Shown in pieces: positions 43,360 to 57,912 of a DNA stretch of 64,000 bases. Under the pieces are notes generated by a model. It did no database searches and had not been told where the DNA came from. It worked only from the letters and a program-made list of their open reading frames with translations. Within the stretch, counting starts at the first letter, position 1; every line of letters begins with the position of its first letter. The DNA lies in assembly GCF_022447245.1 (NCBI RefSeq), contig NZ_JAKVBC010000001.1:62001-126000 (forward strand), read 5' to 3'. The position numbers and the translations under genes were made by a program. The stretch comes from Kordia sp. (lineage in GTDB: Bacteria; Bacteroidota; Bacteroidia; Flavobacteriales; Flavobacteriaceae).

Positions 43360-43554
43360 TTATCTTCCTTGAGATTCAGTACATGCTTGTCCGTGTGTTG
43401 CGTCTTCTCCTGTGGCTCCTAAATCTTGATCTGTCTCTCCGTGTTCAGTATCAGTAGGGATACTTGAACCCCCTTTAATATGATACATATCTATTGGATT
43501 GATTCTTGAGATTATTACTTTTTTTAAACTGATTTTTCTCGATTGTTTCTTCAT
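43360..43554 (-). CDS. GG-leader peptide A
   Basis: Start taken at ATG 43554; an upstream in-frame ATG at 43587 precedes the conserved MKK leader start. The 64 residues read MKKQSRKISLKKVIISRINP as leader, then DMYHIKGGSSIPT and an acidic tail with one Cys (HGQACTESQGR). Leader form (Lys-rich, LxLKK, GG) resembles Bacteroidetes natural-product and class I lanthipeptide-type precursors. It shares INP...IKGGSS[IL]PT with peptide C at 45889. It lies just downstream of regulator 1. Function of the product is unknown. Confidence 0.75.
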   Translation of the reverse strand: MKKQSRKISLKKVIISRINPIDMYHIKGGSSIPTDTEHGETDQDLGATGEDATHGQACTESQGR

Positions 43555-43623
43555 AATTTTAAATATTTTCAAAGTTAATAAGCCCAAGATATATTTAGAT
43601 TCTAAATTAATAAAAATATCCTA

Positions 43624-43645
43624 CCCTATTTCAATCAAAATAGGG
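43624..43645. promoter_or_regulatory. CCCTATTT palindrome upstream of peptide A
   Basis: CCCTATTT, five bases, AAAATAGGG is an inverted repeat about 70 bases before the peptide A start. A TAACTTTG at 43570-43577 (minus) could be the -7 site. It resembles the element before peptide C and two half-sites before peptide E. It is a candidate operator for the adjacent AraC-type regulators; a weak terminator for regulator 1 is the alternative. Confidence 0.5.
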
Positions 43646-43651
43646 AGTTTA

Positions 43652-45271
43652 TTAGTTCTCAGATGCATCCATTTTATTGAGTTGCTTGATATAATAGGAA
43701 GGATTTAGCTCTGTTTTCTTTTTAAAGTGTTTTACAAACGAATCAGCACTTTTATAACCAATTTCTGTGGCGATCGCTTTGATAGAAAACATCCTAAATT
43801 TTTCATCATTCTTTAATCTTTTTAAAACATATTCAATTCGCAAATCGCTGATGTAATCATTAAAACTTTTCTCTTTGTGCTTGTTGATTATTTGTGATAG
43901 GTATGTACTATTCGTTTTTATTTTTTTTGCAACAGATCGCAAATTACATGTAGATTTTAAAAAGTATTCTTGCTCTTCTAATTTCTCCAATCTCGTCAGA
44001 ATGGATTTTATAGTCTCATCATCTAAACGAATATTTTTCGTTTTGCTTTTGGGTTTATCGGACGCGATACTTTTTTTATTTGCTTCTAAGGTTGTGATTT
44101 TTTCTATGAGTGTATTAAACGTAGCTCTATTTGCCTTTTGCTTTTTGATGTATAAGAATGAAATTAGAAGAAATGCTATGGCTACTAATAGAATCACCCA
44201 CCACATATAGCTAATGGTTTTCTTTTGTTCTTTTCCTTGATGTTGCAATGCTTCTATTTCAGATAAAAGATTATTACTATCTTCTTCATGAAACCTATTC
44301 ACAGCAGCGTCTTTCCGAGCACGAGCTGTATCTTTCAATACATTTACCTTATCTAAAAAGAATGCAACTTCTTTGTAATTTTCTTTTTTTTTGTAGCAAT
44401 CTGCCAAAAGCTCATAAGCTTTGATCATGTTATCCTTTACTTCATCTTCTTTTTTGACATCAACAGTTGAGTTTAATAATTCTTGAATGGCTTCGTCATA
44501 CTTTTCTTGATCATAATAACATCCTGCAATGGCGCCACTAGTATTAATAGTAGGAAAGAAAGGACTTTCTATCTTACCTTCTTCTAAAATATCTTTACTC
44601 TTGTATAAATAATAAAAAGCTTCTTCCCATTTTTGTTGATGTCGGTAATACTTTCCTTTCTTGATATATAAATCAACAAGACCCGCATCAAAATGTAGTT
44701 CTTCTGCTAAATGAATCCCTGTATTTACATAAGAAAGCATCGTCTCGTAATCCTCTTTTGCCAAAAAAGCATCACATATCACTGTTAACAACTTGACATG
44801 ACTTACTGTATTTTTAATTGAACTTTTATCAACTAATGTGAGCGCATACAAAGAAAAATTGACAGCTTTATCTTTTTTATTCACTGTAGGTAAAAAAGCT
44901 ATTAATCCAGAATACGCTTTTAATTCATGGTCAATATCTTCATTTTTTTTTGCTACTTTCAATGCATTATAATAGGCTTCTATTGCTTTTTCGTTATTCC
45001 AACTGTATAGATATGATTTCCCGAGCTGCATATACGCACGAAATAACAAACTATCGTTGTTAAGCTCTTTTGAAAGAATAGCTGCATCTAGAGAATAGGC
45101 AATACTTTTTTGATATTTTTCTTTGATTTGTAGCTCACGAGCGAGATCTATATATCGTTTTAATGTTTGCTCTTTGGTTTCTTTTGTATTTTGAGTTTGT
45201 TGTGAAAATGAGTTATATCCAATCAAAAAAAAGATAATTCCCAAGAGAATACTTCGCGCTTTTTTATTCAT
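43652..45271 (-). CDS. TPR / membrane / AraC-type regulator 1
   Basis: A 539-residue protein. Signal peptide MNKKARSILLGIIFFLIGYN; TPR units over about residues 35-330 (YMQLGKSYLYSWNNEKAIEA, AIAGCYYDQEKYDEAIQELL); one membrane helix at about 355-375; a coiled-coil linker; and a C-terminal AraC-type HTH from about 440 (LRSVAKKIKTNSTYLSQIIN, IGYKSADSFVKHFKKKTELN). The TPR part would face the periplasm and the HTH the cytoplasm, so it can sense outside signals and control promoters directly. It is flanked by peptide B (upstream) and peptide A (downstream) and is paralogous to regulator 2. Confidence 0.88.
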   Translation of the reverse strand: MNKKARSILLGIIFFLIGYNSFSQQTQNTKETKEQTLKRYIDLARELQIKEKYQKSIAYSLDAAILSKELNNDSLLFRAYMQLGKSYLYSWNNEKAIEAYYNALKVAKKNEDIDHELKAYSGLIAFLPTVNKKDKAVNFSLYALTLVDKSSIKNTVSHVKLLTVICDAFLAKEDYETMLSYVNTGIHLAEELHFDAGLVDLYIKKGKYYRHQQKWEEAFYYLYKSKDILEEGKIESPFFPTINTSGAIAGCYYDQEKYDEAIQELLNSTVDVKKEDEVKDNMIKAYELLADCYKKKENYKEVAFFLDKVNVLKDTARARKDAAVNRFHEEDSNNLLSEIEALQHQGKEQKKTISYMWWVILLVAIAFLLISFLYIKKQKANRATFNTLIEKITTLEANKKSIASDKPKSKTKNIRLDDETIKSILTRLEKLEEQEYFLKSTCNLRSVAKKIKTNSTYLSQIINKHKEKSFNDYISDLRIEYVLKRLKNDEKFRMFSIKAIATEIGYKSADSFVKHFKKKTELNPSYYIKQLNKMDASEN

Positions 45272-45444
45272 ATGCCTAATGGAAAAAGAAAATTTAATAT
45301 TGACTACAAATTAATCATATTAATCTTATAACCATGAATCGTGTAAAATTTTAATTCGAATTTAACGCATAGGCGTATCTTTGCATCATATTTGTTAGAT
45401 AAACAACACGCTTAATCAACACTTTACATAGAAACATATATTTA

Positions 45445-45489
45445 TTAATTACGCCACAGTAAAAAGATTGTAATTGCTGTAGCGTAATT
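45445..45489 (-). promoter_or_regulatory. Hairpin between peptide B and regulator 1
   Basis: ATTACGCCACAG and CTGTAGCGTAAT form a 12-bp stem with one wobble and a 17-base loop. A related hairpin lies at the equal place between peptide D and regulator 2. It could be an attenuator or a processing site; there is no T-run for a normal terminator. Confidence 0.5.
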
Positions 45490-45530
45490 TTAAAAACTCT
45501 TATGAGTTACACCTCATTAAAAGTATCCAA

Positions 45531-45677
45531 TTATTTCAAGTGGCAACCAATTCCTCCTAACCATCTAGGAACTGAATTACACATTAGAGCCGTTGCTCCA
45601 CCTCCATTTACTTTTTTAAGATCAAAATTAGTAATTACCTCTTTGTTTAACTTTAAGCTTTTTAATGATTTTTTCAT
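45531..45677 (-). CDS. GG-leader peptide B
   Basis: A 48-residue peptide. Leader MKKSLKSLKLNKEVITNFDL, then KKVNGGG, and core ATALMCNSVPRWLGGIGCHL ending in Lys. Cys33 and Cys45 with Ser/Thr between leader and end could allow a thioether or disulfide ring. The core pattern LMCNSV...GGI-CH-K is shared with peptide D, though the flanking residues differ. It lies directly upstream of regulator 1 on the same strand. Confidence 0.78.
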   Translation of the reverse strand: MKKSLKSLKLNKEVITNFDLKKVNGGGATALMCNSVPRWLGGIGCHLK

Positions 45678-45701
45678 TTTATCAATTCTTATAATATAAC
45701 C

Positions 45702-45716
45702 TACTCTATTAAAGGT
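45702..45716 (-). promoter_or_regulatory. Promoter-like block shared by peptides B, D and E
   Basis: On the minus strand the sequence ACCTTTAATAGAGTA stands 25 bases before the ATG. Related sequences are CCTTTAACAAAGTA (peptide D, 48094-48107) and CGTTACTAGAGTA (peptide E, 48387-48399) at almost the same distance. It may be a core promoter or activator site of this peptide group. Confidence 0.45.
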
Positions 45717-45833
45717 TTTCGGTTTTCCCTGTGAACAAAATGCACGCTAGCTATGCTTTATTCTGAGAACCAATTTCTGTTATTAAAATCGTTTAAAAAA
45801 TTATTGTGTCGCGAGATTAAAAAAATTCGGGCT

Positions 45834-45863
45834 CAAAAAAAGTCTTGTATAAAAACAAGACTT
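45834..45863 (-). terminator. Terminator after peptide C
   Basis: AAGTCTTG pairs with CAAGACTT around an 8-base loop; on the minus strand a T-run follows. It separates peptide C from peptide B. Confidence 0.75.
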
Positions 45864-45888
45864 CAAAAGTGAAATACTATGTAATTAT

Positions 45889-46041
45889 TTAGAGCGAAAG
45901 TGTAGGGCAATCTTCTTGAAATGTTTTTTCATCAAACTCCGTTGGAAGACTTGATCCTCCTTTGATTTGCTCCGTAGTTTCTGGGTTTATTGTAGCAATA
46001 GTAATTTTCTTTAAGCCGATTGTTTTTAAGCTTTTCTTCAT
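45889..46041 (-). CDS. GG-leader peptide C
   Basis: A 50-residue peptide: leader MKKSLKTIGLKKITIATINP, then ETTEQIKGGSSLPT and a short acidic core with one Cys (FQEDCPTLSL). It is the paralogue of peptide A and takes the same place downstream of a regulator. Shorter than A by 14 residues. A perfect 24-bp palindrome lies about 65 bases before the start. Confidence 0.78.
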   Translation of the reverse strand: MKKSLKTIGLKKITIATINPETTEQIKGGSSLPTEFDEKTFQEDCPTLSL

Positions 46042-46106
46042 GATTATAAGATTTTTGTTTTACGTACTAAATATAGGTGCTCATTGAAAATTAGCGAAAA
46101 TATAAT

Positions 46107-46130
46107 ACCCTATTTTTTAAAAAATAGGGT
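46107..46130. promoter_or_regulatory. Perfect palindrome with ACCCTATTTTTT arms, upstream of peptide C
   Basis: Two 12-base arms (ACCCTATTTTTT and its complement) meet without a loop, seven bases after the regulator 2 stop. TATATTTA near 46072 (minus) is a possible -7 element for peptide C. Same half-site as the element before peptide A. Candidate operator; a terminator for regulator 2 cannot be excluded. Confidence 0.55.
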
Positions 46131-46136
46131 CGATTT

Positions 46137-47765
46137 TCAACTTTCATCTGATTTCATTTTGTTCAGTTCTTTTATGTAATAAGAAGGGTTTAATCCTGTT
46201 TTCTTTTTAAAGTGTTTTACAAAAGAATCGTCGGTTTTATACCCTAATTCTGTGGCAATTCCTTTTATAGAGAAAGACCTGAATTTTTTATCATTTTTCA
46301 ATCTTTTTAAGACATATTCTATTCGTAAATCATTGATGTACTCACTAAAACTCTTCCCTTTTTCACTTCTGATAATTTGTGATAAGTAGGTAACATTGGT
46401 TTTTGTTTTTTTAGCAATAGAAGCTTGTGTACAATTTGATTTTAGAAAATATTTTTGTGCTTCCAGTTTATCTAATCTTCCTATAATTACCTTGATTGTA
46501 GAATCGTCTACTAAGATATTTTTACTTTCTTTTTTAGGCGGTTTTTGCAATGCAACTTTTTCTTCTTCTTCTAAAGCAGATATCTTTTTGAGTAAATCTT
46601 GAAATGTTGCCCGATTCGCTTTTTGTTTTTTTACATACAATAGCAATGTTATCATAAATGCTGAAGTTGCCACTATGATTGTCCAAAACATATAACTCAT
46701 AGTTTGCCTGTCTTCTTTTCCTTTGTTTTGAAGTGCTATTATTTGATTTAGAAACTTTTCACTATCCTGATCGTGAAATTTATTTGTTGCTATATTTTTT
46801 TTACGACTTGCTGTATTTGTTATGGTAATTACCTTATTTAATAAGGACGTTGCTTTTTTATAATTTTCTTTTTTTATATGACATTGAGCCAACAAATCAT
46901 AGGTTTTGATTACATTATCTTTTTCTAAATCTCCTTCTTTAATAATAGGAATCGAATTTGACAAATGTGTAATGGCTTCATTATACTTTTGTTGATCGTA
47001 AAAACATTCTCCTATGGCATAATTGGTATTTACAGTAGGAAAAAAAGGATTTTCCAGATCGTTTTGGTCAATGATTTTTTTTGCGTAAAACAAGCACTCA
47101 AAGGCTTTGTCATAATTTTTTTGATGTCTATAAAACTTTCCTTTTTTTATATGCAAATCCACAAGTCCTTCTTGAAAACGTAAGGTATCCGCTATCTCAA
47201 TTCCTTTTTCAATATGTGGATACATCGCTTTATAGTTTCCTTGCGCCATATAAGCATCGCATATCGTTGTCAATACACGCACATGGTTTTTTTCTCCTTT
47301 AAAAGAAGCTTTATCAATAAGACTCAAGGCATATATGGAGAAATCTACCGCTTTATCTTGTTTGTTTATGACTGGTAAAAAAGCAATTAATCCTGAATAG
47401 GCAATCAATTCTTGATCAATATTTTTATTTTCTTTAGCAATAGCAAGTGCGTTGTAGTATGCTTCAATTGCTTTTTCATTTTTCCAACTATAGTAATATG
47501 AGTTTCCAAGCTTCATATAGGCTTTAGACAATAGCTCTTTGTCTTCTATTTCTTTAGCAATTTTGGTGGCTTTTAAAAAATATGATATGCTACTTACATA
47601 GTTTTCTTTTTTCTGCAATTCATTCCCAACATCCATATACTGCTGTAATGTTGTTTTTTGATCGCTTTTTAAAGATTTTTGTTGTGAATATGCAAGTGCG
47701 CAGGTTAAAAGGAAAAAAGTTTTTAATACGATACTCCTTATTTTCAACTGTTTATTATACTCCAT
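46137..47765 (-). CDS. TPR / membrane / AraC-type regulator 2
   Basis: A 542-residue paralogue of regulator 1 with the same order: signal peptide or N-terminal membrane segment (SIVLKTFFLLTCALAYSQQ), TPR units (YMKLGNSYYYSWKNEKAIEA, ECFYDQQKYNEAITHLSNSI), one helix near 357-378 (FWTIIVATSAFMITLLLYV), linker, and AraC HTH (QASIAKKTKTNVTYLSQIIR, ELGYKTDDSFVKHFKKKTGL). The HTH recognition helices differ only a little from regulator 1, so both may bind related sites. Flanked by peptides D/E upstream and C downstream. Confidence 0.88.
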   Translation of the reverse strand: MEYNKQLKIRSIVLKTFFLLTCALAYSQQKSLKSDQKTTLQQYMDVGNELQKKENYVSSISYFLKATKIAKEIEDKELLSKAYMKLGNSYYYSWKNEKAIEAYYNALAIAKENKNIDQELIAYSGLIAFLPVINKQDKAVDFSIYALSLIDKASFKGEKNHVRVLTTICDAYMAQGNYKAMYPHIEKGIEIADTLRFQEGLVDLHIKKGKFYRHQKNYDKAFECLFYAKKIIDQNDLENPFFPTVNTNYAIGECFYDQQKYNEAITHLSNSIPIIKEGDLEKDNVIKTYDLLAQCHIKKENYKKATSLLNKVITITNTASRKKNIATNKFHDQDSEKFLNQIIALQNKGKEDRQTMSYMFWTIIVATSAFMITLLLYVKKQKANRATFQDLLKKISALEEEEKVALQKPPKKESKNILVDDSTIKVIIGRLDKLEAQKYFLKSNCTQASIAKKTKTNVTYLSQIIRSEKGKSFSEYINDLRIEYVLKRLKNDKKFRSFSIKGIATELGYKTDDSFVKHFKKKTGLNPSYYIKELNKMKSDES

Positions 47766-47828
47766 AAACTAAAAGAACTTTGTTTACTTTGTAAATATAG
47801 TAATTAACAATAGAGTGATTGCAAATAA

Positions 47829-47887
47829 GAATTACGCTACAGCATAGAAAAAGTCTGCGCATCAACCTTTTCTTCTGTAACGCAATT
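47829..47887 (-). promoter_or_regulatory. Hairpin between peptide D and regulator 2
   Basis: ATTACGCTACAG and CTGTAACGCAAT form an imperfect stem (two mismatches) with inner AGAAAA/TTTTCT pairing. It is the counterpart of the hairpin before regulator 1, which supports common descent of the two units. Confidence 0.45.
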
Positions 47888-47918
47888 TACATGTATTTAC
47901 AGATAAAATACCACTAAC

Positions 47919-48068
47919 TTATTTTACATGGCAGCTTATTCCACCTTCCCTGAAATCTACTGAATTACACATTAACTCAAGAAGACCATATCTTCCAGAA
48001 ATTTTTTCAGAAGTAAAAACAGTAACAACATTTCTATTTATTTTTAATTTTTTAAATGACTTTTTCAT
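47919..48068 (-). CDS. GG-leader-type peptide D (degenerate GG)
   Basis: A 49-residue peptide (a second ATG at 48071 adds one Met). Leader MKKSFKKLKINRNVVTVFTS, then EKISGRYGLL and core ELMCNSVDFREGGISCHVK. The usual GG is GR here, so processing may differ or be lost. Core Cys34 and Cys46 and the LMCNSV...GGI-CH-K pattern match peptide B. It is directly upstream of regulator 2, the same place peptide B holds for regulator 1. Confidence 0.72.
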   Translation of the reverse strand: MKKSFKKLKINRNVVTVFTSEKISGRYGLLELMCNSVDFREGGISCHVK

Positions 48069-48197
48069 CATTTATATTTTTTAAAATTTAATGTACTTTG
48101 TTAAAGGCTTTAAGCTTTTATTTTGGATTAGTGTTTGTATAAAGTTTGCTAGAAATTACTTCGATAAACTCTATGTATGCACAAAAGCTAGTTTTTA

Positions 48198-48362
48198 TTA
48201 ACCACAAACCAATGCTCCAGTATGGCAAAAAAGATCTGTTGGTGGTTCTCCTGTTTTACACTCAGTAACTGTATTGAATATACTTCCTCCTGTCACTTTT
48301 TGAGCGTGAAAATTAGATACTACTTCTTTATTGATCTGTAGTTTTTTTAATGACTTTTTCAT
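48198..48362 (-). CDS. GG-leader peptide E
   Basis: A 54-residue peptide: leader MKKSLKKLQINKEVVSNFHA, then QKVTGGS and a core with three Cys (VTECKTGEPPTDLFCHTGAL, then VCG). The leader is close to B and D, but the core has no partner in the window. It is first in the D-regulator 2-C unit. Two CCCTATTT half-sites lie further upstream at 48491-48516 and 48651-48679. Confidence 0.75.
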   Translation of the reverse strand: MKKSLKKLQINKEVVSNFHAQKVTGGSIFNTVTECKTGEPPTDLFCHTGALVCG

Positions 48363-48490
48363 CGTTTTGTGTTTTTAAATGTGGCTTACTCTAGTAACGA
48401 TTTTCAGCTTCCTCGTTTTCGAAATTGATCACAATTGTTTTTGATTTCTGACACGAATGTCTGGCTTTTAAAAGTCGTAAAAAAGAGACA

Positions 48491-48679
48491 TATCACGACT
48501 TTAAACAAAATAGGGTTGAAAAAAACAGAAAGTATGAAATATATAAAAAACCTTCCTAAATTCGTTTGTATCTCAGCACTTCAGCAACACTTAATAACCT
48601 AACAAACAACACTTTAATCGTTTTTAGTTAAAAAAAATACCTTTATAACTATCAGATACGATTTTAAACGAAATAGGGT
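48491..48679 (-). repeat. Two direct repeats upstream of peptide E; otherwise gene-free stretch
   Basis: The stretch 48363-48766 has no gene that I can support. It holds two copies of one element, read on the minus strand as AACCCTATTTTGTTTAAAGT (ending near 48499) and AACCCTATTTCGTTTAAAAT (near 48661). They share the CCCTATTT half-site of the palindromes before peptides A and C, but without the inverted partner. Probable binding sites or a remnant of a duplicated peptide upstream region. Confidence 0.5.
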
Positions 48680-48717
48680 TTATTTTTTTAGTTAAAAAGT
48701 ATAAAATATAGCTCATA

Positions 48718-48746
48718 AAAAAAATCCGCACGATGGCGGATTTTTA
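48718..48746 (-). terminator. Terminator after the flotillin gene
   Basis: AAAAATCCGC pairs with GCGGATTTTT around a short loop, with T-run on the minus strand. It is 21 bases after the flotillin stop. Confidence 0.75.
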
Positions 48747-48766
48747 GTGATTGTACGATTGTATTT

Positions 48767-50224
48767 TTATTCTACTGTTTCAACATCTGTTGTATCAGAA
48801 GTCGTTCCTACTTCCGTAATATCTTTACCTTTTAGATATTCTGGTAATTCCATTCCTGCCATGTTGAACATTTCTTGTAATGGCGGAACTGCTTTGTACA
48901 TTCCTGAGATAAAGTTAGAGGTAGATGTTTTTCCATCTTTGCCTCCGCCACCATTTTCCCAAACGGTTACTTTATCAATTTTGATATTTTTAATTGCTTC
49001 TGCTTGTGTTTTTACCAATTCAGGCAATTTATCAGCAATTAACAATAAAACAGCATCTTTTGCATCATCTCCAGCAGCTTTTACAATTTGATCTAAACCT
49101 TGTGCTTGTTTCGTTAAGACTTCATATAAACCTTGTGCTTCAGCTTGTGCTTTGAATAAGATCGCATCTGCTTCACCTTTTGCTTTTCTACGGATTCGCT
49201 CTGCTTCCGCTTCTGCATCAATTTCTACTTTTCGCTTGTCAATTTCTGCTGGTACAATAACGTCTGCTTGTTGCGATGAACGTTCTCTTTCTGCTCTCGC
49301 CATTTCTGCTTCGCGCTCCGCTGCATAAGACTCTTCTAAAGCTTTTGCTGCTTGTACTTTCTCCGAAGCTATCGCCACACGTTCTGCTTCTGCCTCTCGC
49401 TGTCTACGTAACGAATCAGAGTTGGCAACTTCAATTTTTGCTTTGTTTTCTCCATCAACAGCTTTTGCATTTGCGGCTGCTACTTGTGTACGCTCATCTT
49501 GCGATGCATTTGCTTCACCAATAGCACCATCTCTGTTTTTCTCTGCAACGGATTTACGAGCTGCGTTGATTGCGTGTGCTGCGGCTTCTTTACCAAGTGC
49601 TTCAATATATCCTGATTCGTCAACAATATCTGTAATGTTTACATTGATCAGTTTTAAACCTACTTTCTTTAATTCAGATTCAACACTTTCGGAGATGTTT
49701 GATAAGAATTTATCTCTGTCGGAGTTAATTTCTTCAATATCCATCGAAGCTACTACCAAACGTAATTGTCCAAAAATGATTTCCTGTGCTAACTCTTGAA
49801 TTTCATTTTGTCCTAATCCCAGTAAACGTTCTGCTGCATTTTGCATTACACCCGGTTCAGTAGAGATACCAATGGTAAATCGTGAAGGTACATTGACACG
49901 AATATTCTGCTTACTTAAGGCATTTACTAAATTTACTTCTATAGAAATTGGAGTTAAATCTAAGTATTCAAAATCTTGGATTACTGGCATGATAAATGCC
50001 GCACCACCATGAATACATTTTGCAGATTTTCCTCCGCCAACTTTTCCATAAACTACAAGAATTCTATCCGAAGGACAACGTTTGTAACGACGTATAAATA
50101 CTGTAATTATTAAAAAAATGAAGAGTACTATTGCTGCAACTAAAATTAACGAAGGCATACTTTCGAGCAGTGTACCTTCCTCACCACCAAGCTGCGTCTG
50201 CAATAAGAGAAGTGTTTTTGTCAT
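48767..50224 (-). CDS. Flotillin-family protein
   Basis: A 485-residue membrane-anchored SPFH protein. One N-terminal helix (SLILVAAIVLFIFLIITVFI), the SPFH domain to about residue 230 (GKVGGGKSAKCIHGGAAFIM), then a long Ala/Glu-rich coiled coil (AEAERIRRKAKGEADAILFK) and a C-terminal tail. Flotillins organise membrane microdomains. The start is two bases after the NfeD-like gene, the classic partner. Confidence 0.93.
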   Translation of the reverse strand: MTKTLLLLQTQLGGEEGTLLESMPSLILVAAIVLFIFLIITVFIRRYKRCPSDRILVVYGKVGGGKSAKCIHGGAAFIMPVIQDFEYLDLTPISIEVNLVNALSKQNIRVNVPSRFTIGISTEPGVMQNAAERLLGLGQNEIQELAQEIIFGQLRLVVASMDIEEINSDRDKFLSNISESVESELKKVGLKLINVNITDIVDESGYIEALGKEAAAHAINAARKSVAEKNRDGAIGEANASQDERTQVAAANAKAVDGENKAKIEVANSDSLRRQREAEAERVAIASEKVQAAKALEESYAAEREAEMARAERERSSQQADVIVPAEIDKRKVEIDAEAEAERIRRKAKGEADAILFKAQAEAQGLYEVLTKQAQGLDQIVKAAGDDAKDAVLLLIADKLPELVKTQAEAIKNIKIDKVTVWENGGGGKDGKTSTSNFISGMYKAVPPLQEMFNMAGMELPEYLKGKDITEVGTTSDTTDVETVE

Positions 50225-50226
50225 AA

Positions 50227-50808
50227 TTATTTTTTATTTATTGGTTGAACGATTAATATTCCAGTTCCTGTAATTTCTTTTACTTCTACTACAGTTCCTG
50301 TTTTAAGTGTTTCATCACTATCCGCAAGTGCATCTAATTCGCGTAAAGCTCCTTGAACATTGACATGAACTTTCCCTATTTTAGAACGATTGGCTCCAAT
50401 AGTTAAATAAACTTCACCGACATTTCCGATTGCATTTTCTAACTTAAGCGTACCGCTACTTACTAGTTTATTGATATAATAAATAAGTGCTGCCATTACT
50501 GCCATCATTGCTAATCCAGCTAGTGTCGATATTAAAAGTGTTACACCTTTTCCGTAACCTGCATTGATACACGAAATTCCTGCCCAACTGAATATGGTAA
50601 AGAATGCCACTAGGTTTTTGAATGTAAAAAATTGAAATCCAATTCCTGTATCTGCTTCAATATCTGCATCTACATCACCATCTACGCCATCTGCATCACC
50701 TATCAAAAATGTAGTAATGAGTACAAATACGAAAATTGTTGATGATATTGCAGCGATAATCCAATACGCTTTTTCAAAAGCGGTTAATGCTGAAAACCAA
50801 TCTCCCAT
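50227..50808 (-). CDS. NfeD-like membrane protein
   Basis: A 193-residue protein with three or four helices (from AYWIIAAISSTIFVFVLITT; WAGISCINAGYGKGVTLLIS), an acidic loop (DADGVDGDVDADIEADTG), and a C-terminal OB-fold (NAIGNVGEVYLTIGANRSKI, VVEVKEITGTGILIVQPI). NfeD proteins work together with flotillins in membrane organisation. Same operon as the flotillin gene. Confidence 0.88.
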   Translation of the reverse strand: MGDWFSALTAFEKAYWIIAAISSTIFVFVLITTFLIGDADGVDGDVDADIEADTGIGFQFFTFKNLVAFFTIFSWAGISCINAGYGKGVTLLISTLAGLAMMAVMAALIYYINKLVSSGTLKLENAIGNVGEVYLTIGANRSKIGKVHVNVQGALRELDALADSDETLKTGTVVEVKEITGTGILIVQPINKK

Positions 50809-50849
50809 AGTATACGGTTTTAATGTGTTATTTTAATCTCTGTTGAATT

Positions 50850-52010
50850 TTAGTCTTTGCATAGCAATACTGAAACAGCATTTCCTCCAAATCCGACCGC
50901 ATTAACCAAAATTTTGTTTAGTTTTTGCGGAATATTTCTTTCGTCAAGATACGGAATTGATATGAATTGTTGTTGCTGTATCATGAGAATTGCTAATTCT
51001 ACACTTAACATTCCTGAAGCTCCAAAAGTGTGGCCTATTTTCCATTTATTAGTAGTCAAACTCGGCATTTTGTTACAAAATATTTTTTTGATGGCTTGAT
51101 ATTCTGCCAAATCACCTTTTATAGTTCCAGGTGCATGAAGCACCACAGCATCAACTTCTTCTGGCGAATGTCCTTGTAATGCCAAACGCATTGATTTTTC
51201 AAAACAGATGCCTTCTGCCGATATGGACGTATTGTGTTTTAAAATTTCTGTAGCATAACCAATTCCTCTAATTTTTGCCAAAGCATGTTGCTTTTCTCCC
51301 TTTTCTAAACAGATAGAAGCCGCACCTTCACCCAAAATCATAGTGTTTCGCTTTTTTTCTAAATCCAATGACAAGCACGGATAGTCAGCTTCCTTTTTCG
51401 CATAAATATGCAATGCTTGCATCTGTGCAATGGTAAAAGGTGTTAAAGGTGCTTCACTTCCTCCTACTACAAATTTTTTTGCCATTCCTGACTGCAGCCA
51501 AGCAATGCCATTTAACAATGCGTGCAATGCCGTAGAACAGGTAATGGAATGTGATATTTGTGGTCCAGTCGTTTGCAAATCGTGTGCAACCCAAGACGAA
51601 ATATTTCCGAGTGTTGTTGTTGGTGAACTTAAGGTTTGTGTGTGTTGATTTTCTAGGAAATCTTTGTGATATTTTTCAAAGAGTGTCGTTGCTCCTCTAG
51701 AGGAACCTATGTTGATTCCAAAATCATTGTCATCATTCCAACCTGCGTTTTCAACAGCAATTCGTGTAGCTAGTATTGCATATAATACACTATCATCTAG
51801 GTTTTTATATTTTGAATTGGAGTTTTTTAACGCTTCAACAGTACCTTTAGCCACTGCAGATAGTGGTGCTGTATACACCTTTTTATTGTGAATTGTGTAT
51901 GTGTGAAAACCATGTGTGCTTTCGGTGTAGTGTTTCCAAATTTCAGCTTGTGCAATTCCCAAAGGAGATACTGAACCTAAGCCTGTTATAGAAATACAAT
52001 CATGCATCAT
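50850..52010 (-). CDS. Beta-ketoacyl synthase (KAS II/FabF-like)
   Basis: Start taken at ATG 52010 (or 52007); about 386 residues. Active-site Cys is in ISHSITCSTALHALL (about residue 157), with the two catalytic His in VVLHAPGTIKGD and WKIGHTFGASGM. The end GFGGNAVSVLL is typical. I recall this type of synthase sitting next to bioA in other flavobacteria. Here bioA lies 6 kb away across the regulator/peptide block. A role in pimeloyl precursor supply for biotin is inference. Confidence 0.85.
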   Translation of the reverse strand: MMHDCISITGLGSVSPLGIAQAEIWKHYTESTHGFHTYTIHNKKVYTAPLSAVAKGTVEALKNSNSKYKNLDDSVLYAILATRIAVENAGWNDDNDFGINIGSSRGATTLFEKYHKDFLENQHTQTLSSPTTTLGNISSWVAHDLQTTGPQISHSITCSTALHALLNGIAWLQSGMAKKFVVGGSEAPLTPFTIAQMQALHIYAKKEADYPCLSLDLEKKRNTMILGEGAASICLEKGEKQHALAKIRGIGYATEILKHNTSISAEGICFEKSMRLALQGHSPEEVDAVVLHAPGTIKGDLAEYQAIKKIFCNKMPSLTTNKWKIGHTFGASGMLSVELAILMIQQQQFISIPYLDERNIPQKLNKILVNAVGFGGNAVSVLLCKD

Positions 52011-52120
52011 AATCAAATAAATTGAGACTGCTAATATCGTAAGAAATCAGTAATCTCAACTTCTTTTTCTATTTTTGATTTATTAAAATTCCCTTACTAA
52101 TTTTTCATCTCTAAAATAGA

Positions 52121-53824
52121 ATGCATTTTTTACATTTAAAATTCACTTATGTTGTTGTTTTATGTATGCTAATAATCGTTCCTGCTTTTGGTCAAGTTGA
52201 TACTTCTTTTCCTCAAAAAGAACTTACAGCACAATCAAAATTTATAGAAAAACATCAAGGTTCAAAAGTAGATATAGAAGCGTATATAGAAACCTATCTT
52301 GCATCAGCCATACAGGCAAAAAATGCGAATCACGAAGCAAAAGCATATTATTATTTATGCCGATTGCATCGTAAAAAGAAAAATGCAGAACGCGCACATT
52401 ATTTTATTGATAAAGCAATTTCTATTGCAAAACAAAAGAATGACTCGTATAGTTTAGGGCTTTTTTTACATAGAAAGGGAACTGTTTTTTATGCAACTGC
52501 TAAAAACGAACAAGCGTTAAAATATTACTTAAAAGCCTATGAATACTTACATACAAAGGAAACTCCGGTAGAAAAATTATTAAACTTACGATATGATATT
52601 GCAACGATAAAACTTAAAGCCAAACATTATAGTGAAGCTTTAACACGGTTTAAAAGTATTGCGAAATCATACGATTCTCTTTTTAAGCGACCTAACAATG
52701 CTGGTAAACATCATAAACCTTTTGTAAGTGTGTTAGCTACTTTGGCTGATACCTATACAGAGCAAGGCTTTTTGAAAGAAGCTATGGATGCTTACGAAAA
52801 AGCACTACATATTAGCATTACTTTTGATTATACATTTGGCACCTACGTCTCATTAGGTGGAAAAGGAAAAGTATTAAATCACCAAAAAGAATACGATAAA
52901 GCCTTAACAGTTATTAATGAGTCAATCCAAATGGCAACAACTGACACGCTTGCTAAAGGCGTAATTCCTTTTTTATATGCGCATAAAGGAGAAAGCTATT
53001 TTGGGTTGAAAGAATACAAAAATGCGATTCTAAATTTCAAAAAAACAGATTCCATCGTCAAAGCTGATAACTTGAATTTTATAGAGTTAGATTATGTATT
53101 AAAACTCATAGCTGCTAGTTATCGGGCATTAGAAGATTATGAAAAATCCTCCTTCTATTTTTATGCACATGCTGATAAAAGTGATTTGAATGAGAAGGAA
53201 CGTATCAAATTACGCGAAACTATTTTTAATGATTTTGAGTTAAATAACATCTCCAAAGAACTAGAAACGATAAAAGAAGAAAAAGGTGTATTTAAAAACT
53301 GGTTTTATTTTAGTGTATTCATTATTCTTTGTGTAAGTATCATATTTGTGATTACGGTTTTTTATTACAAACGAAAACAACGGAATACTAAAGAAAAATT
53401 TGACAAACTTATCGCTTCTATTTCCACTAAAGAAGTAGCTAAAAGCAATAAAAAGAATTTTGTCATTTCAGATGAAACTTCTCAAGAAATTCTTGAAAAG
53501 TTAGATGATTTTGAGACCTCTCTAGCATTTTTAGACAACAAATACAATCTGGCCATTTTGGCAAAACAATGCAACACAAATTCTAATTATTTATCTAAAA
53601 TTATTAATCATCATAAGCAAAAGTCGTTTTCTCAATATTTGACTGATTTGCGAATAAATTATATCATAAGAGAATTAAAAAATAATAAAAAATTACGGGC
53701 TTATACGATACAAGCAATTGCTGAAGAAATTGGTTTCAATAAAGCTGAAGCCTTTTCAAAAGCGTTTAAAAAGAAAACAGGTTTCAATCCTTCTTATTAT
53801 ATAAAAAACCTTGAAACTATTTGA
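52121..53824 (+). CDS. TPR / membrane / AraC-type regulator 3
   Basis: A 567-residue protein: signal peptide MHFLHLKFTYVVVLCMLIIV..GQ, TPR units (YYYLCRLHRKKKNAERAHYF, GLKEYKNAILNFKKTDSIVK), one helix at about 395-415 (FYFSVFIILCVSIIFVITVF), linker, and AraC HTH (LAILAKQCNTNSNYLSKIIN, EEIGFNKAEAFSKAFKKKTG). It has the same build as regulators 1 and 2 but belongs to a distinct subgroup, together with the decayed copy at 54677. It is divergent from the ketoacyl synthase and stands before peptide F. Confidence 0.88.
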   Translation: MHFLHLKFTYVVVLCMLIIVPAFGQVDTSFPQKELTAQSKFIEKHQGSKVDIEAYIETYLASAIQAKNANHEAKAYYYLCRLHRKKKNAERAHYFIDKAISIAKQKNDSYSLGLFLHRKGTVFYATAKNEQALKYYLKAYEYLHTKETPVEKLLNLRYDIATIKLKAKHYSEALTRFKSIAKSYDSLFKRPNNAGKHHKPFVSVLATLADTYTEQGFLKEAMDAYEKALHISITFDYTFGTYVSLGGKGKVLNHQKEYDKALTVINESIQMATTDTLAKGVIPFLYAHKGESYFGLKEYKNAILNFKKTDSIVKADNLNFIELDYVLKLIAASYRALEDYEKSSFYFYAHADKSDLNEKERIKLRETIFNDFELNNISKELETIKEEKGVFKNWFYFSVFIILCVSIIFVITVFYYKRKQRNTKEKFDKLIASISTKEVAKSNKKNFVISDETSQEILEKLDDFETSLAFLDNKYNLAILAKQCNTNSNYLSKIINHHKQKSFSQYLTDLRINYIIRELKNNKKLRAYTIQAIAEEIGFNKAEAFSKAFKKKTGFNPSYYIKNLETI

Positions 53825-53845
53825 TTTTACTCGTATTTCAGTTCC

Positions 53846-53905
53846 CGTTTTTCATGAAAACAGCGTTGTCTTTTTTTGAATCATTCGAAAAATAAGATAC
53901 TTTTC
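53846..53905 (+). promoter_or_regulatory. Operator and promoter of peptide F
   Basis: CGTTTTTCATGAAAACA (53846-53862) is followed 12 bases later by TTTG (53875-53878), 19 bases, TACTTTTC (53898-53905), with the ATG 31 bases on. Same geometry as the elements before peptides G and J. Only one good repeat copy is seen here. Confidence 0.6.
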
Positions 53906-53936
53906 AATTCGAAAAAAATAATATAAATCTGATTTT

Positions 53937-54194
53937 ATGAAGAAAAAAAAGAAAAGTTTATTGTCGCTAAACAAAGTACGTATTCATAATTTAAATCAAC
54001 TGTCCAACATCATTGGCGGACTAGATGATGCTACTAAAGATTGTGAAACATATCAAGAAGATGTTTGTATATGCGAAGAAACCTTGAGCTGTAGAAGTAG
54101 TGCGTATGCGCCTCCAACTGGCTTTGACGATTCATTAAATCCTATGAATACTTCAACACAAACCAATGGTTTGCCTGGAAATGATTGTTGTTAA
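53937..54194 (+). CDS. GG-leader peptide F
   Basis: An 85-residue peptide, the longest of the group. Leader MKKKKKSLLSLNKVRIHNLN, then QLSNIIGGLDD and a core with six Cys: KDCETYQEDVCICEETLSC and a final DCC. It shares DCET...CxC with peptide G across the terminator. Located 112 bases after regulator 3 on the same strand, so likely its nearest target. Confidence 0.78.
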   Translation: MKKKKKSLLSLNKVRIHNLNQLSNIIGGLDDATKDCETYQEDVCICEETLSCRSSAYAPPTGFDDSLNPMNTSTQTNGLPGNDCC

Positions 54195-54216
54195 CACTTA
54201 ATAAGTACAGTTTTGT

Positions 54217-54246
54217 AAAAGGCGCTCAAATGAGCGCCTTTTTTTA
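54217..54246. terminator. Terminator between peptides F and G
   Basis: AAAAGGCGCTCA pairs perfectly with TGAGCGCCTTTT around two bases, followed by T-run. It serves the convergent peptide genes. Confidence 0.85.
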
Positions 54247-54259
54247 TGTTCAAATTCTA

Positions 54260-54478
54260 TTAAAGACAATAGATAAAAGAAAAACAAACTGGATCGTTTG
54301 CAACATCTAAAGTGGCACAATTTTCTGTGTCTTTTGGGTCTCCACAAAGACAAGAAGCCGTTTCGCAATCTGTATCTACGGAAGCATTAATTGTTGGACC
54401 TTGATTCCAATATCCACCTTTAAGGTTTGCTACTTTAGCTTTTTTTAAACTCAACTTTGCTAATTTTTGTTTTTTCAT
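54260..54478 (-). CDS. GG-leader peptide G
   Basis: A 72-residue peptide: leader MKKQKLAKLSLKKAKVANLK followed at once by GGYWNQGP, then a core with six Cys (DTDCETASCLCGDPKDTENC, DPVCFSFIYCL). The leader is shorter than in the others. Core relates to peptide F by DCET..CxC. Convergent with F; its promoter and operator lie toward the decayed regulator. Confidence 0.8.
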   Translation of the reverse strand: MKKQKLAKLSLKKAKVANLKGGYWNQGPTINASVDTDCETASCLCGDPKDTENCATLDVANDPVCFSFIYCL

Positions 54479-54507
54479 AATTATAAGCGTTTGATTTTAC
54501 AATGCTC

Positions 54508-54589
54508 CAAAACTATTGTCTAATAGCTGCGTTTACAACCTACTATACACGCATTTCTTGAAAAACGAGTTTTGTTTTCACGAAAAACG
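54508..54589 (-). promoter_or_regulatory. Promoter and tandem operator of peptide G
   Basis: On the minus strand: repeats CGTTTTTCGTGAAAACA (54573-54589) and CGTTTTTCAAGAAATGC (54551-54567), period 22 bp; then 12 bases; then TTG (54536-54538), 20 bases, TAGTTTTG (54508-54515); then 29 bases to ATG. Peptide J shows the same order with the same spacings. The repeat would be contacted on one face of the helix, as suits an AraC-type dimer. Confidence 0.7.
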
Positions 54590-54676
54590 TGTGGTAGAAT
54601 ATTGATGAATTCTTCGAACGCTTTTTGTTTTTTGATTACTTTTAAAAACCGCATACATTAAATTAACAATATCGAC

Positions 54677-56382
54677 ATGGCTGTAAGCCACAAACGATTC
54701 TTTTATATATTTTTTCTACTTTCCTATGCTATTGGGTTTTCATCCAATGATTCCCTTGCAGTTTTTAAAGAGAAGAATCTTTCACAACAATATGTATATC
54801 TTAAAGAGCATTTGAATGCTGCTAGAGATATTGAAAAGTATATCGCAGCATTTTCAACAAAAGCAAATGCTCAAAAAGACACCAATTATATTGCGCAATC
54901 CTATTATTTTAAACACCGAATTCATAGAAAATCAAAATCATATGCAGAAGCACATTTGGCCATTGACAAGGGTATTTTATTTGCTCAACGTAATAAACAA
55001 GATTCACTAGTAGCGTCATTTTTTCATGCAAAAGGCGCTACTTTTTATATTCAATCTAACTACGAAAATGCATTAGATTATTATATACAAGCCTATGATT
55101 TGATGCGTACAAAAGGTGCTATTGAGAATCGATTGACCTTAGAGTTTGATATTGCCACCATTAAACTTAAAGTTGGGAAAACCAAATAAGCATTGCGTGA
55201 GTTTGATAAGATTATACACTCATACGATTCGCTGCTGAACATCAAACCTGATTCCCAATTTTTAAAGGTTCGCTGTATTAAAATGCTCAATAATACGGCA
55301 AAATCGCAAACAAATGTAGCTATGTATGAAAAGGCAATTGAATTGTATTCCAAAGGTCTATTATTGAATGAAACCACCAATTATCTATCGGGACAATGTA
55401 TCGCTATTGGCGGAAAAGGAAATGTTTATACTGCTTAAAAAAAGTATCAAAAAGCACTTCTTACGTTAGAAGAAGCATTGGCAATTTCTACTAATAATGA
55501 TGAACTGCACTTGATTACTCCTTTTTTATTACTAGATAAAGGGAAATGCTTATTTGGCTTAAAAAAATATAAAGAAGCATTGAAGAATCTTGAAGAAACC
55601 GATCGAATTATACGCGATAAACAACTGAATCTTATTGGTTTATACGAAACCTATCAGTTTCTTGCCAAAACATATGTACAATTAGGAAATCATGAAAAGG
55701 CTACCGAAGTATATGATCTGTATATCGAACGTAAAAACTTAAACACGGACAAACGTTTTGAATTGTATAAAACCATATTTGAAGGATATGATTTAAAAAA
55801 TGTTGAATATCGTGCCGAGAAAGCCAAGAAAGAATCCAATTTGTTTAAAAGTTATTTTTCACAAGCCATCATTGCTATTGTAGTACTTTTGATTATAGCA
55901 ATTAGCTTCTTTCTGTATCATAGAAATCAACAGAAGCAGAAGTTAGCAAAGTTTCATACAGTTATTGATACATTGAAAACTAAAGAGGTTTCAAAAGATA
56001 CAACTCCATCGAAAGGCTATGTACTATCTGACTAAAAAGCAGCAAAAATACTAGAGGTTTTAGAAAAATTAGAAGCAAAATTTTTTTTCCTCGATAAGAA
56101 ATAGAATTTGTCTACACTTGCAAAAAAATGCAATACCAATTCCTGCTATTTATCACAAGTCATCAATAAATATAAAGGAAAAACATTTTCAGAATATATG
56201 ACTGATATGCGCATTTCATACGTTTTAAAAGCTTTAAAAACGACAAAAAGTTACGTTCGTATACCATTCAGTCTATCACAGAAGAAATTGGTTTTAAGAA
56301 GTCAGAATCGTTTGCAAAAGCGTTTAAGAAGCGAACTGGACTCAATCCGTCTTATTATATAAAAAACCTTGAAAACATCTAG
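54677..56382 (+). pseudogene. Decayed TPR / membrane / AraC-type regulator 4
   Basis: From ATG 54677 one frame encodes a close relative of regulator 3: signal peptide, TPR units, membrane helix (YFSQAIIAIVVLLIIAISFF) and AraC HTH. It is stopped by TAA at 55187, 55436 and 56033 and by TAG at 56102, and shifts frame by one near 56240. After the shift it reads KKLRSYTIQSITEEIGFKKS to the normal end NPSYYIKNLENI and TAG at 56380-56382. Five lesions rule out sequencing error. Neighbouring peptide genes are partly decayed as well. Confidence 0.9.
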
Positions 56383-56403
56383 TTTTCAGCATATTATTTA
56401 ATA

Positions 56404-56422
56404 GCTATTTTTATAAAAATCG
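56404..56422 (+). promoter_or_regulatory. Operator-like element before peptide H
   Basis: GCTATTTTTATAAAAATCG resembles the TTTTTATGAAAA repeats before peptides I, J and K and lies 72 bases before the ATG. A second copy and a clear promoter are not seen. Confidence 0.45.
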
Positions 56423-56493
56423 ATTATTAACATTCGGATTTTTGTATGAAATTAACGGACTTATTAGTAGCATTAATCTTTAAAACGAATATT

Positions 56494-56712
56494 ATGAAAC
56501 GTACATTTTACAAAAAATTAGCTTTACAAAAAATTACTATCGCTCATCGTTTGTATGGTGGAAGCGCATCACCAAATACAGAGTCATCTCCTACACAATC
56601 AAGTACTTTCCACGAACCAACGGAAGTACCTACAGATTTTCCAGAAATTGATAAAACCGGTGAATCACAAAACACGACCTTAATTATTGGTAATCAACAA
56701 TCGTGTGTGTAG
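56494..56712 (+). CDS. GG-leader peptide H
   Basis: Start taken at ATG 56494; an upstream in-frame ATG at 56446 would add 16 residues unlike any leader. 72 residues: MKRTFYKKLALQKITIAHRL, then YGGSASPNTE and a Ser/Thr/Pro/Glu-rich core (STFHEPTEVPTDFPEID) with a single Cys one residue from the end. It shares FH[ED]PTE and its general make-up with peptide K. A terminator follows. Confidence 0.72.
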   Translation: MKRTFYKKLALQKITIAHRLYGGSASPNTESSPTQSSTFHEPTEVPTDFPEIDKTGESQNTTLIIGNQQSCV

Positions 56713-56733
56713 TTATTTATCACTAAAAAATCA

Positions 56734-56763
56734 AAAAGCGAACATTTCTGTTCGCTTTTCTTA
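56734..56763. terminator. Terminator between peptides H and I
   Basis: AAAAGCGAACA pairs with TGTTCGCTTTT around a short loop, followed by T-rich sequence; the two flanking genes are convergent. Confidence 0.75.
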
Positions 56764-56771
56764 TAACTTTA

Positions 56772-57047
56772 TTATGCACAAACTTGCACTGATAAGCATA
56801 TATTTGGAATTTCACCATAACAATACGAAAGTTAAATGGTTGGTCTTGTACAACCTTCCGTATAAGTTGCAACAATAGAAGGTCCTGTTACTACACAATC
56901 TTTTGAATAACACGCACCGTGTTCTGATTGTACTGGACATGGATACTCTTTTGTTACATTAGTTCCACCAACAATACCAGATGATTGCAAATTGGACACA
57001 CGATTTTTTTTTAGACTTAATTTTCAGTTTATATTCTTTTTTTTCAT
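56772..57047 (-). pseudogene. GG-leader peptide I, broken by two stops
   Basis: One frame of 92 codons runs from ATG 57047: MKKKNIN, TGA, KLSLKKNRVSNLQSSGIVGG, then a core with six or more Cys. TAA comes within TEGCTRPTI-stop-LSYCYGEIPNICLSVQVCA. The last part aligns with peptide J (CTRATIELSYCNNGVPQGCQ SVQACA), so Glu became a stop. The gene is therefore dead unless both stops are read through. Operator repeats upstream are intact and shared with peptide K. Confidence 0.82.
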
Positions 57048-57076
57048 GATGAATATATTTTTGATTAATAATGATA

Positions 57077-57161
57077 CTAAGTTAGAAGGCTTTTTAGGCG
57101 AACACAAGCTATTACTAGCGACTTTCATAAAAATAGATCACGATTTTTATGAAAATAGATG
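57077..57161. promoter_or_regulatory. Shared operator of divergent peptides I and K
   Basis: Two repeats in tandem: CGACTTTCATAAAAATAGAT (from 57119) and CGATTTTTATGAAAATAGAT (from 57141), period 22 bp. Toward peptide I there follow TTG (57105-57107), 20 bases, TAACTTAG (57077-57084) on the minus strand. Toward peptide K no good promoter is visible. The starts of both peptides lie about 70 bases from the repeats. Confidence 0.6.
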
Positions 57162-57230
57162 TTAAGTATCGGGAATATTTTTAGGAATTAGTGTTCTTCA
57201 TACCGTTAAATTATTTTTAAAAAGATCAAT

Positions 57231-57428
57231 ATGAAGAGTATAGCTAACAAAAAATTAGTTTTAAAAAAAGTAACTACTTCAACACACCAAATTTTTGGAG
57301 CTTCTAATGCAAATCCAAGCCAAGATGATAATACCGATAGCGAAACACTTTCGAGTGCATTTCATGATCCAACAGAATCTCAAATAAACCCCAGAGTTTT
57401 AAGTCAAAATGCAGAGATTTGCTTGTAA
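57231..57428 (+). CDS. GG-leader-type peptide K (GG changed to GA)
   Basis: A 65-residue peptide: MKSIANKKLVLKKVTTSTHQ, then IFGASNANPS and a polar core (SSAFHDPTESQINPR) ending in AEICL with one Cys. It is the paralogue of peptide H (YGGSAS... FHEPTE). Gly-Gly at the expected cut site is Gly-Ala, still acceptable for some GG peptidases, or a first step of decay. Confidence 0.68.
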   Translation: MKSIANKKLVLKKVTTSTHQIFGASNANPSQDDNTDSETLSSAFHDPTESQINPRVLSQNAEICL

Positions 57429-57454
57429 GACTTCTTATATTTTTAACGTATATA

Positions 57455-57486
57455 AAGAGCGAACCCAAAAAGGTTTGCTTTTTTAA
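57455..57486. terminator. Terminator between peptides K and J
   Basis: AAAGAGCGAACC pairs with GGTTTGCTTTTT (imperfect), followed by T-run; the genes on both sides are convergent. Confidence 0.65.
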
Positions 57487-57518
57487 TAAATGTAATCCAA
57501 CGATTAAGGTGACATACA

Positions 57519-57799
57519 TTATGCACAAGCTTGTACTGATTGGCAACCTTGTGGTACACCGTTATTACAGTATGAAAGTTCTATCGTGGCTCTAGTACAT
57601 CTATCTGCGCAGGTTACTGCTTCAGTAGCATCAGTTACTCCTCCTCCACAATTGTTTTGGCTTGTCGTACGACCAGGTTCACATGTAGCTAAATTTACAG
57701 AGATTGTTGTAAAGTGTGGAAATGAACCACCATTAATGTTTGCTAAGTTTGAAATCATACTTTTGTTAAGTCTCAACGTTGTTAAGTTCTTTTTTTCAT
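57519..57799 (-). pseudogene. GG-leader peptide J, frameshifted in its 5' A-tract
   Basis: ATG at 57799 has the right RBS and promoter distance, but with seven A after it the frame stops after five codons. With eight A it would read MKKKNLTTLRLNKSMISNLA, then NINGGSFPHF and a core with eight Cys (ATCEPGRTTSQNNCGGGV, CADRCTRATIELSYCNN, QGCQSVQACA). The present open frame can start only at TTG 57776, losing the MKK start. The core is intact and related to peptide I. Slippage, real lesion or sequencing error are all possible. Confidence 0.78.
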
Positions 57800-57827
57800 T
57801 GTGATAAATTTTGATTTAATAATGCGT

Positions 57828-57912
57828 CAAAACTAGATTTGATTTCGTACTGACACAAGGCAGTATTTGCCGTTTTTATGAAAATCTATCACGTTTTTAT
57901 CAAAACAGATAG
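57828..57912 (-). promoter_or_regulatory. Promoter and tandem operator of peptide J
   Basis: Repeats (plus strand) CGTTTTTATGAAAATCTATC from 57871 and CGTTTTTATCAAAACAGATA from 57892, period 21 bp. Then 12 bases, TTG (57856-57858, minus strand), 20 bases, TAGTTTTG (57828-57835), and 28 bases to ATG. The -33/-7 sequences and all spacings equal those of peptide G. Confidence 0.7.

Follow-up and report, generated by a model that had tools for sequence, protein, structure and literature searches.

Why does a stretch of flavobacterial DNA carry eleven short peptide genes with a common leader, interleaved with regulators that join tetratricopeptide repeats (TPR) to an AraC-type helix-turn-helix (HTH)? 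The question arises from an island within 64,000 nucleotides (nt) of a Kordia sp. genome (the window, C1:62001-126000 of a 5.24-Mb draft), for which the initial annotation had suggested a peptide-sensing system that controls its own peptide genes. This suggestion is partly supported. The link between regulator, operator and peptide is the firm part, in which we place high confidence, and on balance we consider it probable that the units form a circuit in which one protein senses a peptide and controls lanthipeptide-type genes, and which has been amplified in Kordia.

Pairing of regulators with GG-leader peptides

All eleven short genes were located in 43360-57799, with a leader made up of a K-rich start, LxLxK, a helix and GG or a GG-like sequence. 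The reported interleaving with four TPR/AraC genes is reproduced by Pfam, however only three of these are intact, each with HTH_18 above cut-off as in AraC/XylS-type proteins, while the fourth is broken by four stops. The peptide genes are coding and constrained: the ratio of nonsynonymous to synonymous substitution rates (dN/dS), taken over 123 reciprocal-best pairs whose TPR parts have an identity of at least 0.65, is 0.23 in leaders and 0.28 in cores.

The linkage of peptides to regulators is regular in the genus. Among the best 149 TPR-AraC genes examined from 11 Kordia genomes (150 best matches of 60 genomes were listed, G010 C8 being left out), 136 are followed on the same strand by a GG-leader gene, at a distance of 11-216 nt (median 96, 5-95% range 77-128), and 6 of the remaining 13 by an unscored short GG-type open reading frame (ORF) at 73-116 nt. 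On the upstream side, 35 of the 149 regulators have a peptide within 300 nt, 29 of them on their own strand, mostly reflecting tandem units. With at least about 150 peptide matches in 5.24 Mb, the chance of a peptide start in a given 300-nt same-strand window is 0.004, against which stand 17 of 18 regulators with an adjacent peptide in this genome and the 136 of 149 overall. When one method was applied throughout this genome, a peptide start was present within 300 nt downstream of 13 of 20 long-ORF AraC genes (2 of which lie outside the TPR-AraC family), as compared to 1 of 22 other intact AraC genes. Thus, related genomes in which the two are never linked, the pattern named at the outset as speaking against the proposal, are not what Kordia presents.

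TPR-AraC proteins number from 15 to at least 23 per Kordia genome. A leader profile, built from 40 peptides of this genome and hence favoring its own genus, gave at least 108 matches here (E<=1e-4) and from at least 84 to at least 134 in the 10 other genomes of the genus; the best 23 regulator and the best 137 or 150 peptide candidates were scored per genome, so that counts are lower bounds there. Of 49 genomes outside the genus, 4 had matches (1, 1, 1 and 5); weaker relatives of the leader peptides do exist there. Decayed TPR-AraC genes with peptides or remnants downstream (L056 10635-11300, L057 9100-10100, L060 9866-10452) indicate that units are gained and lost. Separately, a GG-leader peptide was noted 134 nt downstream of one ordinary AraC gene (G000 C33:25695-26139, L072).

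Palindromes upstream of the adjacent peptide

The proposal had DNA sites as its output, and candidates for these were recovered. At the 136 adjacent promoters, palindromes scoring at least 9 occur in 24% at -100 to -81 and in 29% at -80 to -61, against 1% each in shuffles, and no excess was found at other positions upstream of these peptides. Altogether, 68 of the 136 regulator-peptide gaps contain a palindrome, belonging to families such as CCTCAAATTn4AATTTGAGG, GTCGTATTTn4AAATACGAC, TCGTGATATTTATAAATATCACGA and GTGCAATTTATAAATTGCAC, with ACCCTATTTTn4AAAATAGGGT in the window; types of paralogous units include ACCCTATTTT and TCGTGATATTT. A preliminary pattern scan of the window (46 matches, 31 expected) was too loose and was set aside.

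Considering that the palindromes lie shortly past the regulator stop and that the units are paralogous, the sites might serve to terminate transcription of the regulators, and the pairing might be mere copying of one cassette. We regard this as very improbable, and the terminator reading was rejected: the palindrome centre is fixed relative to the peptide ATG (82 +- 13 nt before it), yet falls anywhere from 0 to 134 nt past the regulator stop, a T-run of at least five follows in only 8 of 68 cases, and the same site is found before other peptides and upstream of regulators. Its sequence is moreover kept in orthologues and different in paralogues, as detailed below.

Between orthologues (145 pairs) the 24-bp site keeps 20.7 bases, compared to 12.5-14.7 for the flanks, for which windows were shifted by at most 3 nt and insertions lower the similarity. 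The site also follows the HTH, with 21.3 of 24 bases shared at HTH identity of at least 0.8 and about 12 at 0.4-0.6; for pairs below 0.7, operator and HTH similarity correlate with a Mantel rho of 0.24, reached by 0 of 300 permutations. Furthermore, the own site recurs elsewhere in the locus (at least 17 of 22 bases) in 28 of 66 loci versus 12 of 990 foreign-site scans, often 72-85 nt before another peptide of the same cluster, and it is present within 600 nt upstream of the regulator (at least 16 of 22) in 19 of 66 versus 16 of 990. The HTH comparison included 65 of the 68 palindromes, the conservation and recurrence analyses 66. For the window site, 10 genome matches with up to 3 mismatches were detected (control 3), and those with 0 and 1 mismatch as well as 1 of the 8 with 3 mismatches are in the island. 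As the site differs among paralogues, is kept in orthologues, follows the HTH and recurs in its own locus, each unit appears to possess a private operator.

Of 17 occurrences of the motif TAnnTTTG, which we take to be the flavobacterial -7 element, 13 start 42-44 nt from the palindrome centre, a spacing that would suit an activator. Because the site is upstream of the promoter element, control is likely activating, to the extent that position informs on direction. Peptides away from TPR-AraC genes have a different, TACGGTAAAACCGTA-like upstream palindrome (G000 C20:33254 and C34:108887; L070, L053).

Putative sensor and ligand, and lanthipeptide machinery

What, then, would the TPR part sense? 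The initial annotation had placed it outside the membrane with the HTH inside, and the AlphaFold2 model of regulator 2 (pLDDT 88.2, pTM 0.63) is congruent with this, predicting a superhelix of TPRs, a single long helix that contains the hydrophobic segment and would span the membrane, and a C-terminal, cytoplasmic HTH. In profile searches engineered TPRs and LGN matched best, followed by RapF (4e-16), NprR (1e-13, 9e-13) and Rap3T; with Foldseek, too, LGN-peptide complexes came out on top, Rap-pheromone complexes ranking 33 and 45. The matches are consistent with peptide binding, but no proof of it. The sensor has diverged far more than the HTH (median identity 0.22 versus 0.54, 9,180 pairs), and peptide core identity correlates with TPR identity at rho 0.56 and with HTH identity at rho 0.44.

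The adjacent peptide is furthermore of its own kind, with an LKKxKIAKI-like leader, the leader of the other (second-tier) peptides being LNKKxISxL-like. Profiles trained on 6 genomes classified 44 of 47 and 49 of 54 peptides correctly in 5 others, training and test genomes sharing orthologues. In adjacent cores the median net charge is more negative (-3 versus -1) and Cys is slightly less frequent (median 3 versus 4), and many second-tier cores are rich in Cys, Ser and Thr.

The module extends beyond the genus, with a TPR-AraC match at E<=1e-80 in 69 of 296 genomes of the order, this one included. In 29 of 88 non-Kordia rows (L123-L141, 19; L249-L277, 29; L278-L317, 40; one gene twice) the regulator has a Kordia-like GG peptide next to it (3/19, 17/29 and 9/40, respectively; L265 by eye only), in 18 of them downstream in the same orientation and in 11 immediately upstream in divergent orientation. 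Another six rows have a class II-type GG leader downstream, as judged by eye; L257, L274 and L277 of these, and L310, also have a divergent peptide or are in both counts. A scripted 'GG-type' rule called 12 of the set of 40, of which 6 were histone-H1-like and 1 was by eye a class II-type leader, leaving 5. Cys content is 0 or 1 in 28 of the 29 adjacent peptides, with none in 11, and these 28 are thus not multi-ring lanthipeptides. A serine peptidase follows 16 of the 17 downstream units for which further DNA was read (S8 in 8, S9 in 6, S15 in 2), and none was found in the DNA read after unit L123. Of 12 LanB genes, present in 8 of 10 non-Kordia genomes searched, 10 lie no more than about 6 kb from a unit. 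The non-Kordia loci also have palindromes, near -80 to -97.

Other arrangements were encountered as well. A separate non-Kordia TPR-AraC set is followed by a histone-H1-like small protein (L287, L290, L294, L295, L297, L299), and in another family of the order (L261, L312) the downstream small proteins have a Sec-type signal and no GG leader. Cys-rich GG-leader peptides (4-5 Cys; L314 1262-1681, L316 1272-1682) are found near regulators with a one-Cys divergent peptide, the same two peptide kinds as in Kordia.

Given that it has a fixed place, a leader type of its own and, where relatives have LanB nearby, almost no Cys, and that the sensor is a TPR protein, the adjacent peptide is the likeliest ligand, a step to which we give slightly better than even chances. 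Alternatively, the palindromes may let the regulators control the peptides while the TPR part responds to another cue, such as stress on the envelope, a compound from host or prey, or a folding state in the export machinery; the peptides would then be output only. The operator evidence fits this equally well, TPRs bind many protein partners, the best fold matches are not pheromone receptors, and many family relatives lack an adjoining peptide. We nonetheless judge it unlikely, as each receptor has one peptide, at a constant position, the adjacent peptide carries a leader of a separate type and outside Kordia is nearly Cys-free even beside LanB, and divergence is much faster in the sensor than in the HTH.

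Several results weigh against a cognate peptide circuit. Half of the gaps (68/136) are without a palindrome at the score threshold, an all-cluster promoter-pair comparison was weak (means 15.2 versus 14.85 of 20), and orthologues from several genomes represent non-independent data. General peptide-binding TPRs (LGN, designed TPRs) precede pheromone receptors among the matches, and the small margin of TPR over HTH in the core correlation may be explained by common descent. No Kordia-like GG peptide was found beside the regulator in 59 of the 88 non-Kordia rows. Finally, 78 of 135 adjacent Kordia peptides have at least 3 Cys, a small difference from the others, so that Cys content alone does not separate the types in Kordia, and adjacent peptides may themselves be lanthipeptides.

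The absence of LanB, LanC and a transporter, as first described, is true of the window (no LanB or LanC among its larger ORFs) but not of the genome, where the biosynthesis and export genes are located elsewhere. A single LanB match is found at C1:228978, about 110 kb from the island, together with 3 LanC matches in the genome (one holding a stop) and 6 C39-peptidase matches, 3 of them strong with open frames of about 745 amino acids (aa). The LanB cluster comprises LanC, LanB N- and C-terminal proteins, a TPR-AraC gene with adjacent peptide, LanA-like peptides, HlyD and a C39 ATP-binding cassette (ABC) transporter; one adjacent-peptide unit thus resides within a lanthipeptide cluster. The claimed likeness of the leaders to class I lanthipeptide leaders holds in part: 7 of 10 window peptides compared (of the 11) match NF038153, the NCBIfam leader family, weakly (E 4e-4 to 0.2), 3 do not match, and none reaches the cut-off of 22 bits (best 20.4).

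In a further alternative, the island would chiefly be a library of precursors for class I lanthipeptides. The only LanB/LanC set (C1:227716-231000) would modify them in trans, the C39 transporter of that set would export them, and the regulators would be ordinary pathway regulators. Congruent with such a library are the leader motif, as in Bacteroidetes LanA according to the accessible portions of PMC7268733, the NF038153 matches, even if below threshold, the complete cluster with one LanB, and the Cys/Ser/Thr-rich cores of many second-tier peptides. A single LanB would however have to serve more than 100 leaders, and neither the one receptor and one operator per unit nor the Cys-free adjacent peptides elsewhere are accounted for. 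As an account of the whole island we find it distinctly unlikely; for the second tier it is compatible with the peptide-sensing circuit.

In this circuit, a TPR-transmembrane (TM)-AraC gene is followed by a GG-leader peptide gene, as is visible in the sequence. In about half of the units, a private palindrome just upstream of the peptide promoter would be the AraC site, in an activator-like position, with copies before other cluster peptides and in some cases upstream of the regulator. A C39-type ABC transporter, whose gene lies elsewhere in the genome, would export the peptide and cleave it behind GG, and the mature adjacent peptide would bind the TPR superhelix outside the inner membrane, the membrane helix signaling to the HTH. 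Positive feedback and induction of second-tier, more Cys-rich lanthipeptide-type peptides would result. In other flavobacteria the module would be part of class I lanthipeptide clusters, whereas in Kordia it would have multiplied to about 20 units with differing operators and sensors. The most far-reaching form, about 20 insulated pheromone circuits per Kordia genome (receptor, cognate peptide and private operator), derived from a flavobacterial lanthipeptide regulator module and constituting a Bacteroidota pheromone class with an outside-facing one-protein TPR receptor, is put forward tentatively, at somewhat less than even chances.

Relation to known systems and features of the island

GG-leader pheromone systems of ComC, BlpC and plantaricin-type bacteriocin clusters place an inducer beside its receptor, with repeated DNA sites before the peptide genes and C39 export. 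The Kordia units share the adjacency and the cluster-shared sites (the recurrence given above), and presumably C39 export; they differ in that receptor and HTH are one protein, replacing histidine kinase and response regulator. The RRNPP class (Rap-Phr, NprR-NprX and PlcR-PapR of Firmicutes; defined in PMC10075063, as far as its text was accessible) likewise combines a TPR receptor gene with an adjoining small propeptide gene, the pairing seen in 136 of 149 cases here, and the receptor may carry its own DNA-binding domain; RapF and NprR are among the matches to the Kordia TPR part, which also aligns to structures of Rap with pheromone. Unlike RRNPP receptors, which are intracellular, the Kordia protein is predicted in the inner membrane with the TPR part outside, having an N-terminal hydrophobic part and a membrane helix between TPR and HTH. 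It has AraC in place of the RRNPP HTH type, and its peptide has a GG-type leader without hydrophobic stretch rather than a Sec signal.

Bacteroidetes class I clusters, in the accessible portions of PMC7268733, have LxLxKx5L...GG leaders and C39 proteases. The leader is alike, and LanB clusters hold one Kordia unit and several flavobacterial ones; most Kordia units are however without LanB, and those portions describe no regulator with private operator. For Bacteroidales RiPP (ribosomally synthesized and post-translationally modified peptide) clusters, the available part of PMC10352776 reports TPR genes in 2 of 9 and raises pheromone binding as a possibility, but contains no AraC fusion, operator or repeated unit as in Kordia. 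Many RiPP clusters are known from Kordia (PMC10734526, in the part available). No description of TPR-AraC/GG-peptide units was found in open-licence PubMed Central texts, as far as accessible, subscription papers being outside this scope. If the proposed circuit is right, Bacteroidota would gain a genetically encoded class of peptide signaling that is testable pair by pair, about 20 natural receptor-peptide-operator sets per genome would be at hand for studying how specificity splits after duplication, and silent flavobacterial lanthipeptide clusters could have a handle for switching them on.

Table 1. Regulators, peptides and putative sites of the island (window positions)
Feature	Position	Strand	Support
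GG-leader peptide adjoining regulator 1, 98 nt after stop	43360..43551	-	
Unit 1 putative operator, palindrome, 1 mismatch to CCCTATTTTN4AAAATAGGG	43624..43645	.	Palindrome scan
TPR-TM-AraC regulator 1, 539 aa	43652..45271	-	Pfam TPR_12 + HTH_18; hydrophobic segment from residue 357
GG-leader peptide, second tier, 2 Cys in core	45531..45677	-	
GG-leader peptide adjoining regulator 2, 96 nt after stop	45889..46041	-	
Unit 2 putative operator, perfect palindrome CCCTATTTTTTAAAAAATAGGG	46108..46129	.	
TPR-TM-AraC regulator 2, 542 aa	46137..47765	-	Pfam; AlphaFold2 pLDDT 88.2
Peptide with GG-like leader (GR), second tier	47919..48071	-	No family match
GG-leader peptide, second tier, 3 Cys in core	48198..48362	-	
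Operator-like site, 3 mismatches, upstream of peptide 48198-48362	48494..48515	.	
TPR-TM-AraC regulator 3, 567 aa	52121..53824	+	Pfam
Unit 3 putative operator, CGTTTTTCATGAAAACA	53846..53862	.	
GG-leader peptide adjoining regulator 3, 113 nt after stop	53937..54194	+	
GG-leader peptide, second tier, 6 Cys in core	54260..54478	-	
Unit 3 site, copy 2, 1 mismatch, upstream of peptide 54260-54478	54573..54589	.	
TPR-TM-AraC regulator 4, broken by 4 in-frame stops	54677..56382	+	Pfam; G002 relative unbroken
Unit 4 palindromic site	56405..56422	.	G002 relative has similar operator
GG-leader peptide adjoining broken regulator 4	56494..56712	+	
GG-leader peptide, in-frame TGA in leader, broken	56832..57047	-	
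Unit 4 site, two copies about 22 bp apart	57119..57158	.	
Peptide with leader ending GA, core similar to 56494-56712	57231..57428	+	
GG-leader peptide, out of frame near start, broken	57519..57799	-	
Unit 4 site, 2 more copies about 21 bp apart	57870..57912	.	

The stops of regulator 4 are at 55187, 55436, 56033 and 56102, and its pieces are 57-90% identical to the unbroken relative in genome G002. The TGA in peptide 56832-57047 follows after 7 codons. With the frame of peptide 57519-57799 also lost, the last quarter of the island is thus decaying. An uncultured Kordia has an orthologue of regulator 2 with 87% identity and the same neighbours. The island is located inside a stretch of biotin genes (40570-61407), with bioB on one side and bioA, bioD and bioF on the other (names assigned by eye), and the stretch also holds a Band-7 protein and a ketoacyl synthase according to Pfam.

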